From the IMG/VR virus record IMGVR_UViG_3300027851_000001, positions 1-59,658 of that record: a stretch of 59,658 bases of DNA; one strand, given 5' to 3'. The notes below the pieces were generated by a model, which was given only the letters and a program-made list of their open reading frames with translations, ran no database searches and had not been told where the DNA came from. The position numbers and the translations under genes were made by a program. Of this stretch, positions 48,666 through 53,740 are shown piece by piece. Origin of the DNA: a virus. The first letter of the stretch is position 1; every line of letters starts with the position of its first letter.

Positions 48666-48763
48666 CCTACCTCGCCTTCGCGTTGGGCCTCACGGCCGGC
48701 GCCTGCCTCGGCGTGGTCGTCGCGGCCATGGCGTTCGTATCCAAGCAGGAAGATGACAAATGA
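48662..48763 (+). CDS. Tiny membrane protein (33 aa)
   Basis: ATG overlaps the previous stop and its own stop overlaps the next start. One hydrophobic span (L-A-F-A-L-G-L-T-A-G-A-C-L-G-V-V-V) then K-Q-E-D-D-K. Resembles the tiny proteins at 33953 and 39549. Confidence 0.5.
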   Translation: MTYLAFALGLTAGACLGVVVAAMAFVSKQEDDK

Positions 48764-49122
48764 CCAAACTCGTACCCAACAGACGTACCATGGTGAAGAT
48801 CAACCGCTTCACACAGGCCAACCTGATCGCCCTCCTTCTGGAGGGCATGTACACCTGCCAGGAACTGGCCGAGGAGACCGGGCTGCACTACGTCACCGTG
48901 CTGGATTACACCCGCGAGCTGCACCGCGCCAAGGCCGCCTTCATCAAGTGCTGGGAGCCCGACAAGCGGGGCCGGTACAACCGCAAGGTGTATCAGGTGG
49001 GCATCGGCAAAGACGCTGTGCCCCCGCGGCGCACCGCCGCCGAGCGGCAGAAGGCGTACAGGGACAAGCTGGCCGAACACAAGAAGCTGACCGCGCTGGG
49101 GGTGACATGCGCTTCCGAGTAG
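48760..49122 (+). CDS. HTH DNA-binding protein, transcription-regulator candidate (120 aa)
   Basis: L-I-A-L-L-L-E-G-M-Y-T-C-Q-E-L-A-E-E and G-L-H-Y-V-T-V-L-D-Y-T-R-E-L-H-R form a helix-turn-helix with wing-like R-G-R-Y-N-R-K-V-Y. A basic C-terminus (R-R-T-A-A-E-R-Q-K) follows. Together with the RHH protein it is the main candidate regulator; overlaps the membrane peptide by ATGA. Confidence 0.7.
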   Translation: MTKLVPNRRTMVKINRFTQANLIALLLEGMYTCQELAEETGLHYVTVLDYTRELHRAKAAFIKCWEPDKRGRYNRKVYQVGIGKDAVPPRRTAAERQKAYRDKLAEHKKLTALGVTCASE

Positions 49123-49526
49123 TCACTGGCAACACCGCCCGCAACCCGGTGGCGAGAGCCATCGCCCGGCAGAAGGTGCACGACATCCTGCTGACAACCA
49201 AGCTGCGGGTGTATGTGCTGGAGGATGGCATGGACGACTCCCGCTTCATGCACGGGGTACTGAAATCTCTAGTCACCGTGGCGAGAGCCATTGAGCTGGG
49301 CCGCCAGCGGGGCTACCACCAGCTGACTCGCGACGAGACCCGGGACTTCAACGTCCTTCGCGGTGGGGTCTCCGCTCTGGAGCAGAACCTCACGTGCTGG
49401 AACAGCGCCAACGCCGTGGCCATCGAGGCTGCGGTGGACGCCTGCGAACGACTGAACAAAATCGCCCGGACCGACTGCATCGCCGATGCGGCCGAGGAGT
49501 TCGGCGTAACGATAACGAATAGGTAG
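49107..49526 (+). CDS. Hypothetical protein (139 aa)
   Basis: Starts 16 bases inside the HTH gene. Helical, basic N-terminus (N-P-V-A-R-A-I-A-R-Q-K). Function unknown; ACGATAACGAATAGGTAGGAG follows for the next gene. Confidence 0.55.
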   Translation: MRFRVVTGNTARNPVARAIARQKVHDILLTTKLRVYVLEDGMDDSRFMHGVLKSLVTVARAIELGRQRGYHQLTRDETRDFNVLRGGVSALEQNLTCWNSANAVAIEAAVDACERLNKIARTDCIADAAEEFGVTITNR

Positions 49527-50631: not shown

Positions 50632-50924
50632 GACTTGAAATACTCCGGGCCGAGAACGGCTATGTGATGGTGCTCAGCGACGACGCCACTGGGCGAGGGA
50701 AGCGTTTCATCGCCGACGACATCGCCAAGGTGGGAGAGCTTGTTGTGTCGCAGCTCGCCGCTGCCGAACTCGATCGCCAAGATTGGAAGGCCACGGCGGA
50801 CAAGTACGGCCCCGTCGAGGGCGTTGCAGCCAATATCCAGAAACCGCTGTGGCAGACCCCTATCCATGGGGCCGGCGCGCGGGATGACCCGTTGATGGTC
50901 GGTGGTTCCACCGGGGGTTACTGA
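50628..50924 (+). CDS. Hypothetical protein (98 aa)
   Basis: ATGA overlap upstream and TGATG overlap with the polymerase. Short beta-alpha start (L-R-A-E-N-G-Y-V-M-V-L-S-D-D). May accompany the polymerase; function unknown. Confidence 0.55.
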   Translation: MRLEILRAENGYVMVLSDDATGRGKRFIADDIAKVGELVVSQLAAAELDRQDWKATADKYGPVEGVAANIQKPLWQTPIHGAGARDDPLMVGGSTGGY

Positions 50925-53740
50925 TGCCAGATATTTATACGGTGGATTTTGAGTCGATGTACGACACCGACTACTCCCTGTCCAAGATGCAGACCGAGGC
51001 GTATGTGGAGGACGCCCGGTTCGAGACCATCGGCATGGGTATCGGTAAGAACGACGGCAACATCCACTGGTTCACTGAGCCCTCCGACATCACCCACGTG
51101 CTGGACCGCATCAACTGGGACAACTGTGCTGTGCGCGCGCACAACACCCACTTCGACGGGCTGATCCTCTCGCACCGGTACGGCAAGAACCCGGCGCAGT
51201 GGCGCGACACCCTGGCCAGCGGACGCATGATGCGACCCCACTACCGCCAGCACTCGCTGGGCTACATGGCCAAGGCGCTCGGCCTCCCGGACAAGGGCAA
51301 TGAGGTGATCGCTGCCAAGGGCAAACGCCGCGCGGACTTCACGCCGGCCGAGCTGCACGCCTACGGGGAGTACTGTAAGCTGGACACGGCCCTGTGCCGC
51401 ACCATCGGCGACATCTTCGACCCCTACACGCCGGCGCTGTACGAGTACCTGATCGACATGACGGTGCGCATGTTCACGGAGCCCGCGCTGGTGGGCAACC
51501 GGCAGAAGATGCAGGAGTTGTACCAAGCCGAGCTGGACCGCAAGGCGCGCCTGCTGCTGGACGCATCCGTGGACCGCTCGATCATCATGTCGGGCGACAA
51601 GCTGGCCCGCGCGCTGCTGGACCTGGGTGTGGTGGCGCCGCGCAAGGTGAGCCCCAAGACAGGTAAGGAAACATGGGCGTTCGCCAAGACCGACAAGGTG
51701 TTCTGCGACCTGCTGGAGCACGAGGACCCACAGGTGCAGGCACTGGTCGCCGCGCGACTGGGTGTGAAGTCCACCATTGCCGAGACGAGGGCGAAAACTT
51801 ACGCGGAGATGACGGACCGTGGCCCGCTGCGTGTGTTCCTGTCGATGTGGGGCGCCAAGACCACGGGAAGATATTCAGGAACCAACAAGGCGAACTGGCA
51901 GAACCTTCCGGCCCGTGGCCCGGCCGCCGGCCTGCGTGAAGCCATCTGCGCGCCGGTAGGGCACCAGCTGGTGGTGGGCGATTCGTCGAACATCGAGCTA
52001 CGTACTGTCATGTGCTTGGCGGGGCAGTGGGACGTGGTTGAGAAGATCCGCAACGGGGTGGACCTGTACTGCGACTTCGCCTCGCGCCTGTTCGGCCGCA
52101 CCATCACCAAGGCAGACAAGGCCGAGCGGCAGCTGGGCAAGGTCGCGTGCATCGCCGAGGGGCAACTGGTGCTTACGGACAAGGGCCTCGTCCCTATAGA
52201 AGAAATAACGCTGTCCCATTCAGTATGGGATGGGGTAGACTTCGTTCACCACGACGGTGTGGTGTTCAAGGGGGTGCGCGATGTCATCGAATACGACGGG
52301 ATCACGGCAACAGCAGACCATGTCGTTTGCCTGGAGAACGGTGCGTGGTGCAAGCTCGGCGACGCCGCCGGTGCGGGTGCGCGAGTCGCTACAACCGAAC
52401 GAGGTGGGGCGCCGGTTTGGTTCATGGGTTGTGCAATCTACGGAGCTGCGCGAGATGCGCGCGAAGGTGGATTGCCTGTGCGACTGCGGGCGGCGGACGT
52501 GGGTCGGGTTGGAGAGCCTGCTGAACGGAACATCGACACGATGCAAGGGCTGCGCTACGACGGCGCGGCACGCGCGGGACGGGGAGCTGCTGCACGCGAC
52601 TCCGTTGGTGGCGGCGTTGGCACGGCGGGCGCAGGCCATGCGGGCTCGTTGCACACAGCCACAGAATCCGCGATGGGAGTCGTACGGAGGGCGAGGGATA
52701 GAGTTTCGGTTCTCGTCCGTGAAGGAGTGCGTGGAGCACTTGCTCACGCTTCCCGGGTGTTCTATGGAGCTGGAAGTGGATCGACGGGAGAACGCTGGGC
52801 ACTACGAGCATGGGAATCTTCGCTTCGTCACGCGGGTGGAGCAGCAAGCGAACCGGAGAAATACGGCGCGGGTGCAGACCTCCGGTGGCCCAGTGCCGCT
52901 GGTGGATTGGCCCAGCCCGTACAGCCCTGGGCGCACGTACATCTACGCGGTGAAGCTGGACATGCCAGCCGAGGCGATCATTCGGCGGGCACAAACAGCC
53001 GTGGCAGAGAAACGGAAGAACTGGCGGGGGCTGCGAGACCGGCTGGCCGCGCTCGGGTATACGACATAGTCAACGCGGGCCCTCGGCACCGGTTCACCGT
53101 GTCCGGCAAGCTGGTCCACAACTGCCTGTCGCTCCAATATGGGGCGGGTGCCCCCCGCTTCCAAGAAATGGTCAGGATGGAGTCGACGCGGAACCCCGAC
53201 ATGAAGCCGATTTCTATAGAACGGGCAATGGAAGTGGTCGCGCTGTACCGTCAGATTCACCACAAGGTGGTCGACCTGTGGAACTACTGCAACGACGTTG
53301 TGCTTCCCGCCATCGCCCGCGGCGACTTCGGCCGCAACGTGGACGTCAACGGCTGGTTCATCGTGCAGAACGAAGGCTTCGGCCGCCCGGGTGAGCCCGG
53401 CGTCATGTACCATGACCTGCGCTACGACGCCAAGGAACGCGAGTGGACGTACCAGATGGGCAATGAGCGCGTGCGCATATTCGGGCCGAAATTGGTGGAG
53501 AATCTTTCCCAGCACGCTGCTATGATCATAGTCATGTGGCAGACCGCACGGATCAACACCAAGTTCCCGGTGAAGCTGTCGGTGCACGACGAGGCCGTCA
53601 CGGTTCCGGAGGACGCGCGGGTGGCCGAGGCCAAGGCATACGTGCTGGAGTGCCTGTCGCTGGCGCCAGTGTGGTGCCGCGGTGTGATACCCGTGGCGGG
53701 GGAGGTCGGGGTTGGAACAACGTATGCAGGAGCGAAATAA
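50924..53740 (+). CDS. Family A DNA polymerase precursor with intein (938 aa; 613 aa after splicing)
   Basis: The N-terminal 3'-5' exonuclease has D-F-E-S (D8, E10), H-N-T-H-F-D and Y-C-K-L-D-T. Polymerase motif A is V-V-G-D-S-S-N-I-E-L-R (about residues 349-359), motif C is V-H-D-E-A-V (about 886-890). Motif B (O-helix) is interrupted: R-Q-L-G-K-V-A is followed by an intein at Cys409 and resumes with C-L-S-L-Q-Y-G-A-G at Cys734. After splicing the motif is R-Q-L-G-K-V-A-C-L-S-L-Q-Y-G-A-G, a normal family A O-helix. Mature length suits phage Pol I enzymes. The unspliced protein should be inactive. Confidence 0.9.
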   Translation: MPDIYTVDFESMYDTDYSLSKMQTEAYVEDARFETIGMGIGKNDGNIHWFTEPSDITHVLDRINWDNCAVRAHNTHFDGLILSHRYGKNPAQWRDTLASGRMMRPHYRQHSLGYMAKALGLPDKGNEVIAAKGKRRADFTPAELHAYGEYCKLDTALCRTIGDIFDPYTPALYEYLIDMTVRMFTEPALVGNRQKMQELYQAELDRKARLLLDASVDRSIIMSGDKLARALLDLGVVAPRKVSPKTGKETWAFAKTDKVFCDLLEHEDPQVQALVAARLGVKSTIAETRAKTYAEMTDRGPLRVFLSMWGAKTTGRYSGTNKANWQNLPARGPAAGLREAICAPVGHQLVVGDSSNIELRTVMCLAGQWDVVEKIRNGVDLYCDFASRLFGRTITKADKAERQLGKVACIAEGQLVLTDKGLVPIEEITLSHSVWDGVDFVHHDGVVFKGVRDVIEYDGITATADHVVCLENGAWCKLGDAAGAGARVATTERGGAPVWFMGCAIYGAARDAREGGLPVRLRAADVGRVGEPAERNIDTMQGLRYDGAARAGRGAAARDSVGGGVGTAGAGHAGSLHTATESAMGVVRRARDRVSVLVREGVRGALAHASRVFYGAGSGSTGERWALRAWESSLRHAGGAASEPEKYGAGADLRWPSAAGGLAQPVQPWAHVHLRGEAGHASRGDHSAGTNSRGRETEELAGAARPAGRARVYDIVNAGPRHRFTVSGKLVHNCLSLQYGAGAPRFQEMVRMESTRNPDMKPISIERAMEVVALYRQIHHKVVDLWNYCNDVVLPAIARGDFGRNVDVNGWFIVQNEGFGRPGEPGVMYHDLRYDAKEREWTYQMGNERVRIFGPKLVENLSQHAAMIIVMWQTARINTKFPVKLSVHDEAVTVPEDARVAEAKAYVLECLSLAPVWCRGVIPVAGEVGVGTTYAGAK
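52148..53122 (+). mobile_element. Intein in DNA polymerase motif B (325 aa)
   Basis: Block A at the N-terminus: C-I-A-E-G-Q-L-V-L-T-D-K-G-L. Block B: T463-A-D-H466. Block F/G at the C-terminus: V-Y-D-I-V-N-A-G-P-R-H-R-F-T then H732-N733 followed by Cys734 of the host protein. All splice residues (Cys1, T-x-x-H, His-Asn, Cys+1) are present. Between about residues 485 and 710 the intein frame is Ala/Gly/Arg-rich and looks like out-of-frame translation, because the same DNA encodes an HNH endonuclease in the +1 frame. Confidence 0.88.
52341..53069 (+). CDS. HNH homing endonuclease in the +1 frame inside the intein (242 aa)
   Basis: The frame is open from 52257. GTG at 52341 is chosen because CTGGAGAACG precedes it; ATGs at 52281 and 52320 lack ribosome sites. 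The protein has a zinc-ribbon start (G-R-R-F-G-S-W-V-V ... C-L-C-D-C-G ... C-K-G-C) then R-R-A-Q-A-M-R-A-R-C, Y-G-G-R-G-I-E-F and D-R-R-E-N-A-G-H-Y-E-H-G-N-L-R-F, typical of free-standing phage HNH endonucleases. It would cut intein-less polymerase genes to drive homing. It lies one base ahead of the intein frame and both frames lack stops throughout. Confidence 0.85.
   Translation: MRGASSATPPVRVRESLQPNEVGRRFGSWVVQSTELREMRAKVDCLCDCGRRTWVGLESLLNGTSTRCKGCATTARHARDGELLHATPLVAALARRAQAMRARCTQPQNPRWESYGGRGIEFRFSSVKECVEHLLTLPGCSMELEVDRRENAGHYEHGNLRFVTRVEQQANRRNTARVQTSGGPVPLVDWPSPYSPGRTYIYAVKLDMPAEAIIRRAQTAVAEKRKNWRGLRDRLAALGYTT

Follow-up and report, generated by a model that had tools for sequence, protein, structure and literature searches.

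A phage DNA polymerase intein with a putative homing endonuclease gene in an overlapping reading frame, and its relatives in phages and prophages

The stretch of DNA considered here, called the window below, is the 59,658-base virus record IMGVR_UViG_3300027851_000001. On its plus strand, an ORF of 938 aa at 50924-53740 encodes a polA-type DNA polymerase, matched by Pfam DNA_pol_A (E 1.3e-13) and by phrog_17 (3.6e-42); it reads without internal stops through an insertion in polymerase motif B, after RQLGKVA and before CLSLQYG. The insertion, 325 aa in the polA frame (52148-53122, plus strand), extends from Cys409 (52148) to Asn733 (53122) and is followed by Cys734 as the +1 residue (codon 53123-53125). 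The complete set of splice blocks reported at this site in the preliminary description (Cys409, T-x-x-H, His-Asn and Cys734) was confirmed from sequence: the motifs are CIAEGQLVLT, TADH, VYDIVNAGPRHRF, and LVHN followed by the +1 Cys. These fit the signature of class 1 inteins: an N-terminal Cys or Ser nucleophile, TxxH in block B, a C-terminal Asn (mostly as His-Asn) and a +1 Cys, Ser or Thr. By these motifs and its modeled fold the insert is a class-1-type intein, expected to splice. The polymerase gene is one continuous ORF, not a fractured gene with the halves of a split intein in separate ORFs. Elsewhere in the window, a listed ORF of 257 aa (48753-49526) looks like shadow coding in its first half; the probable gene start there is the internal MRFRVVTGN.

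The intein falls into three parts. The N-terminal splicing half (residues 1-80; 52148-52387, plus strand) contains Cys1 (52148-52150) and the block B residues T55 to H58 (52310-52321), and is modeled by AlphaFold at pLDDT about 96-98; the C-terminal half (residues 294-325; 53027-53122, plus strand) contains blocks F and G and the His-Asn end, at about 95-98. In an alignment of 64 such inteins the invariant columns all lie in these two ends: C1, T55, H58, D306, N325 and a few others. Between them is a passenger segment (residues 81-293; 52388-53026, plus strand), Ala/Gly/Arg-rich and free of stops, just as first noticed; it is predicted to be disordered, with pLDDT about 37-62 through most of its length, and residues 85-271 are mostly below 50, with secondary structure absent. 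In Foldseek searches of the PDB the best matches of the intein model are solved inteins, led by NpuDnaE (E 3e-4) and Mtu RecA. The two halves are thus modeled as a HINT fold, and the expectation that structure prediction would give a splice fold interrupted by disorder was borne out. The family phrog_26005, of unknown function, matches 59/64 of these inteins and probably contains intein sequence.

The second gene lies across the passenger, in the +1 frame relative to polA: an HNH endonuclease gene of 262 aa (52281-53069, plus strand; stop TAG at 53067-53069), whose ends overlap both splicing halves. An HNH endonuclease in this frame had been proposed from the letters alone, and the proposal stands: the frame is open, and its product matches the PHROG HNH family phrog_374 (E 8e-25 and 1.2e-24 in separate searches), as do the products of 38/38 HNH relatives. 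Invariant among those 38 are the zinc-binding cysteines Cys67, 69, 88 and 91, a Y-G-x-R-G motif and residues of the HNH region. From these the protein is a putative zinc-finger homing endonuclease, which would cleave DNA and promote homing. A PDB sequence search with the HNH profile gave no match; the AlphaFold model has a mean pLDDT of 84.7, and a fold search with it gave no meaningful match to a solved structure. A Pfam search named neither the intein nor the HNH of the window, which may help explain why such elements have been overlooked.

Relatives place this arrangement in context. The best HNH matches in annotated phages fall within genes annotated as DNA polymerase: those of Streptococcus phages Javan113 and Javan255, Gardnerella phage AB1, EBPR siphovirus 2 and Shigella phage EP23; Salmonella phage FSL SP-101 was found through its polymerase match. 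In each of these the polymerase frame is open and the HNH is out of frame. Further loci came from profile searches of viral and genome contigs.

These relatives bear directly on where the nuclease begins. The start suggested initially, GTG 52341, is unlikely; comparison with relatives replaces it with ATG 52281, which is probably the start in the window, being the site used by relatives such as L003. This ATG sits within the block B region of the intein. Five bases upstream, within intein codons, is a Shine-Dalgarno-like sequence, AAGGGGGT (52268-52275, plus strand), weak in that by strict count it is a 4-nt match only. The signals are plainer across the family. In 42 of 46 offset-1 relatives an HNH-frame ATG falls within a narrow section of block B, mostly 9 or 13 codons upstream of its His, and the two positions never occur in one locus; a Shine-Dalgarno match of at least 5 nt precedes the corresponding ATG in 39/48 relatives, against 3.9% of 633 background ATGs. 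Synonymous codon choice in the start region favors GAG (z 3.9) and TAT (z 3.3), from which the Shine-Dalgarno sequence and the ATG are built, beyond their usage in the same genes. Since nuclease-less mini-inteins retain both the ATG and the Shine-Dalgarno-like sequence, these signals may partly reflect intein codons, or recent loss and ancestry. For the offset-2 class, candidate starts near -18 were considered as well; they apparently follow from a conserved intein-frame Trp codon, and prove little.

The same observations weigh on the most serious rival, that the nuclease is reached not by internal initiation but by programmed +1 frameshifting from the N half of the intein, yielding an N-intein-HNH fusion. 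Frameshifting likewise needs no promoter of its own, and in some loci the HNH frame is open for a few codons upstream of the ATG. In many relatives, however, the HNH frame is closed by a stop one or two codons before the conserved ATG, which marks that ATG as the natural start of the nuclease; the Shine-Dalgarno-like enrichment and the mutual exclusion of the -9 and -13 positions also speak against a shifted fusion. Frameshifting is therefore improbable. The most likely account is that a single mRNA would serve for two products: a polymerase that splices, and a homing nuclease translated separately from an internal start.

The layout itself was surveyed in 140 loci that have both splice blocks. 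A single uninterrupted intein ORF with the HNH out of frame is present in 126 of them; the HNH offset is +1 in 87, +2 in 39 and zero in none. Fourteen loci are exceptional (L020, L055, L064-L066, L074, L076, L077, L080, L081, L089-L091 and L102), and seven of these were inspected. In five (L020, L055, L064, L074 and L089) the intein is split and the HNH gene lies between its halves; in L077 a single frame change fuses the HNH to the N half, and L102 has a deletion and a broken polymerase frame. The split inteins of L064, L074, L089 and similar loci occupy another polA site, where in L064 and L074 the intein ends at HN|S ahead of DSVNLQNLPSR; their C half seems to begin with a Met of its own. 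The splicing residues are well kept: Cys1, the final Asn and a +1 Cys or Ser occur in 77/77 non-redundant relatives, and TxxH in nearly all. The stop and codon-position tests described below took loci with one continuous ORF, leaving split types out; a second survey is free of that choice. It consists of loci found through the intein N half together with five annotated phages, 78 distinct cases in all: 66 inteins of at least 200 aa whose HNH is out of frame, 6 shorter inteins that keep an HNH remnant, and 6 mini-inteins. Among these 78 there was no in-frame endonuclease and no interrupted intein.

These counts speak against an artifact, in which paired indels from sequencing or assembly, or the decay of a pseudogene, make an in-frame endonuclease look out of frame. 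Frame breaks do occur in the family, as L077 and L102 attest; yet these two are the only, and damaged, exceptions to set beside the suggestion that relatives might carry the endonuclease in the intein frame, and no intact example was found. The out-of-frame layout recurs in isolated phages and in prophages of several phyla, and the in-frame form is absent from the intein-only survey. A 100% identical copy is also present on a second IMG/VR contig, IMGVR_UViG_3300006033_000637, one not necessarily assembled independently. Indels or decay are a very unlikely explanation.

A further possibility is that the open second frame is a by-product of GC-rich coding sequence. The window alone gives this some room: when the synonymous codons of the HNH were shuffled and stops counted in the intein frame, 3.25 were expected, with P(0) = 0.02, weaker evidence than the 'few in a thousand' estimated at first. 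In the window alone the absence of stops is no more than suggestive; several GC-rich relatives are individually unremarkable. Chance is ruled out by the family-wide counts, not by the window sequence. Over 77 loci, non-redundant at 90% nucleotide identity (52 offset 1, 25 offset 2), the intein frame across the HNH contains 0 stops where about 528 are expected (444.9 for offset 1 and 82.9 for offset 2). In the third frame, which has nothing to protect it, stops are about as frequent as predicted, 921 against 916.5 expected (603 against 578.2 for offset 1, 318 against 338.3 for offset 2). Relatives at 38-44% GC expect about 4 to 14 intein-frame stops each and have none. Nor can HNH codon bias account for the openness, because the open frame differs between the two offset classes while the nucleases are homologous: both offset phases are open. 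The GC by-product explanation can be set aside as most improbable.

A self-splicing RNA intron, with the HNH gene nested in it inside the intein gene, is just as remote: HNH genes are common in phage group I introns, but an Rfam search up to E 1 matched no intron family, there would be no need for a stop-free intein frame in an RNA intron, and the HNH gene and splice blocks leave little space for a group I or II core.

Which of the two frames is constrained, and how, can be read from substitutions in 32 independent pairs of relatives. At HNH codon positions 1/2/3 they number 359/251/944 for offset 1 and 169/95/486 for offset 2; of these, a fraction of 0.60-0.67 is synonymous for the HNH, as against 0.15-0.20 for the intein frame and 0.13-0.18 for the third. 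The excess at third positions and the high synonymous fraction indicate that the HNH is a working gene under purifying selection. No amino-acid constraint was seen in the intein frame over the overlap, where the synonymous fraction is at chance level among the relatives. The product of that frame across the HNH is a passenger, held only to be stop-free, and full dual constraint applies only where the ends of the HNH overlap the splice blocks. The idea that selection keeps both frames open thus holds in part: the intein frame is kept free of stops and the HNH is under purifying selection, but no constraint on the intein-frame amino acids was seen over the overlap.

The history first imagined, of a mini-intein invaded by a free-standing HNH gene, gains no support as a local event. 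Nearly all phrog_374-type nucleases of these inteins fall into a single clade (100/98) that excludes 33 other HNHs; the clade contains the split forms and several switches of offset, and the window nuclease adjoins offset-2 members. Three rows labeled 'free' in the tree need correction: L185 is really an offset-2 intein, and L183 and L184 are inteins of the APSE type. As the insertion site and HNH lineage of APSE-1 (L184) differ, the APSE type is probably an independent invasion. Mini-inteins of 122-140 aa (L182, L214, L216, L251 and L260) have lost the nuclease; they look derived, since they still carry the ATG and Shine-Dalgarno-like sequence of the lost gene.

Horizontal movement of the element is suggested by several observations. 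The N-intein is more similar than the extein in 98% of distant pairs (median identity 0.51 against 0.25); insertion sites vary within polymerase motif B and extend to SF2-type helicases; and some polymerases, those of Pseudomonas phage Rollin and Rhizobium phage RHph_TM3_14A, are intein-free. This pattern of sharing fits horizontal movement, which we take to be homing. The helicase inteins (L044, L057, L058, L069, L088, L093 and L052) are of the same type, and in several of those loci lie near GRVMRG or GRGLR motifs; the helicase of L093 (284-2401) also matches Hom_end_hint, and a second, classical intein may sit in the same gene. Two PolA ORFs that carry the intein (L030, 1192-3747; L145, 1687-3804) have an N-terminal uracil-DNA-glycosylase domain.

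These observations are best brought together as a mobile intein with two separate products from overlapping frames, a reading to which we assign a probability of about 0.88. It builds on what was computed here: the two frames and their layout, the depletion of stops, purifying selection on the HNH, the predicted fold and the start signals of relatives. The splicing, internal initiation, DNA cleavage and homing that it calls for would run as follows. A ribosome in the polA frame would read the N-extein, the N half of the intein, a disordered passenger of about 213 residues, the C half and the C-extein; the two intein halves would fold as a normal intein, excise and join the polymerase. In the +1 frame, ribosomes would restart on the same mRNA at ATG 52281 and make the free 262-aa zinc-finger HNH endonuclease. 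The endonuclease would cleave polA alleles that lack the intein in co-infecting phages, and the whole element would be copied during repair. Over the nuclease, selection would keep the intein frame stop-free and no more, as a stop would truncate the polymerase.

The layout thus holds up; it is widespread and maintained by selection. It occurs in over a hundred related phage and prophage genes, so that holding a single stretch of DNA open for two products looks less like an accident than like a widespread design. More broadly, we think it probable that in a large family of phage inteins the homing nuclease regularly has an overlapping gene to itself instead of being a domain; that the family keeps to nonzero offsets, passing between +1, +2 and split forms but never coming to rest in frame, so that separate translation is selected; and that many cases have been overlooked since annotation expects in-frame endonucleases. 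The family provides a large natural set for the study of overlapping genes, in which homologous nucleases occur in two phases relative to one host frame and the third frame is a built-in control; the mini-intein and split relatives sketch a life cycle. It also allows one to test directly how a selfish gene can come to be expressed separately while the essential gene that hosts it stays intact.

The usual description of an intein is of a single polypeptide that combines a splicing domain with an endonuclease domain. In bifunctional inteins such as PI-SceI the endonuclease domain is inserted between blocks B and F of that polypeptide; as in the window, splicing halves flank the endonuclease, but here a gene of its own, overlapping the intein, encodes the nuclease. 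Fractured genes with split inteins, having a free-standing endonuclease gene between the halves, were reportedly described by Dassa et al. in 2009; that form is seen in L055, L064, L074 and L089, whereas the window and most relatives keep one continuous intein ORF.

The closest published parallel is the ShiLan domain, an out-of-frame HNH insertion in a mycobacteriophage DNA methylase (Arsenault, Gosselin and Gogarten 2025, PMC11855218). Its in-frame product is predicted to have no HNH or zinc-finger structure, and the element spreads like a homing element (PMC11855218). In both cases the HNH is hidden out of frame and the insertion adds no stop to the host ORF. ShiLan, however, has no splicing domain, and its insert is thought to be retained in the protein. 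In the present family the nuclease is flanked by two splice halves, polymerases and helicases take the place of the methylase as hosts, and the phages are more diverse. For overlapping frames, PMC11855218 cites a 2025 preprint on non-canonical actinophage inteins (bioRxiv 10.1101/2025.01.02.630785), whose title, with that citation, suggests similar architectures. A literature search, whose reach did not extend to this preprint, returned no readable paper that treats out-of-frame nucleases of splicing inteins. Part of the layout may already have been described, and priority is uncertain; the additions here are the family-wide selection test, the start signals and the intein-only census.

In Hamiltonella phage APSE-1 (GenBank AF157835), P46 is annotated as an ORF within the P45 polymerase; at that locus (L184, 2501-3658) P46 is an HNH endonuclease, encoded at +1 within a PolA intein, a layout shared by Shewanella phage SFCi1 (L183). 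Their HNHs belong to a different subfamily, and they account for 2 of the 66 survey inteins; the APSE-1 insertion site and HNH lineage differ from those of the window. The Felix O1 genome paper (PMC3185647) took an out-of-frame HNH as ruling out an intein; judging by the present family, an out-of-frame HNH is an unsafe argument against one.
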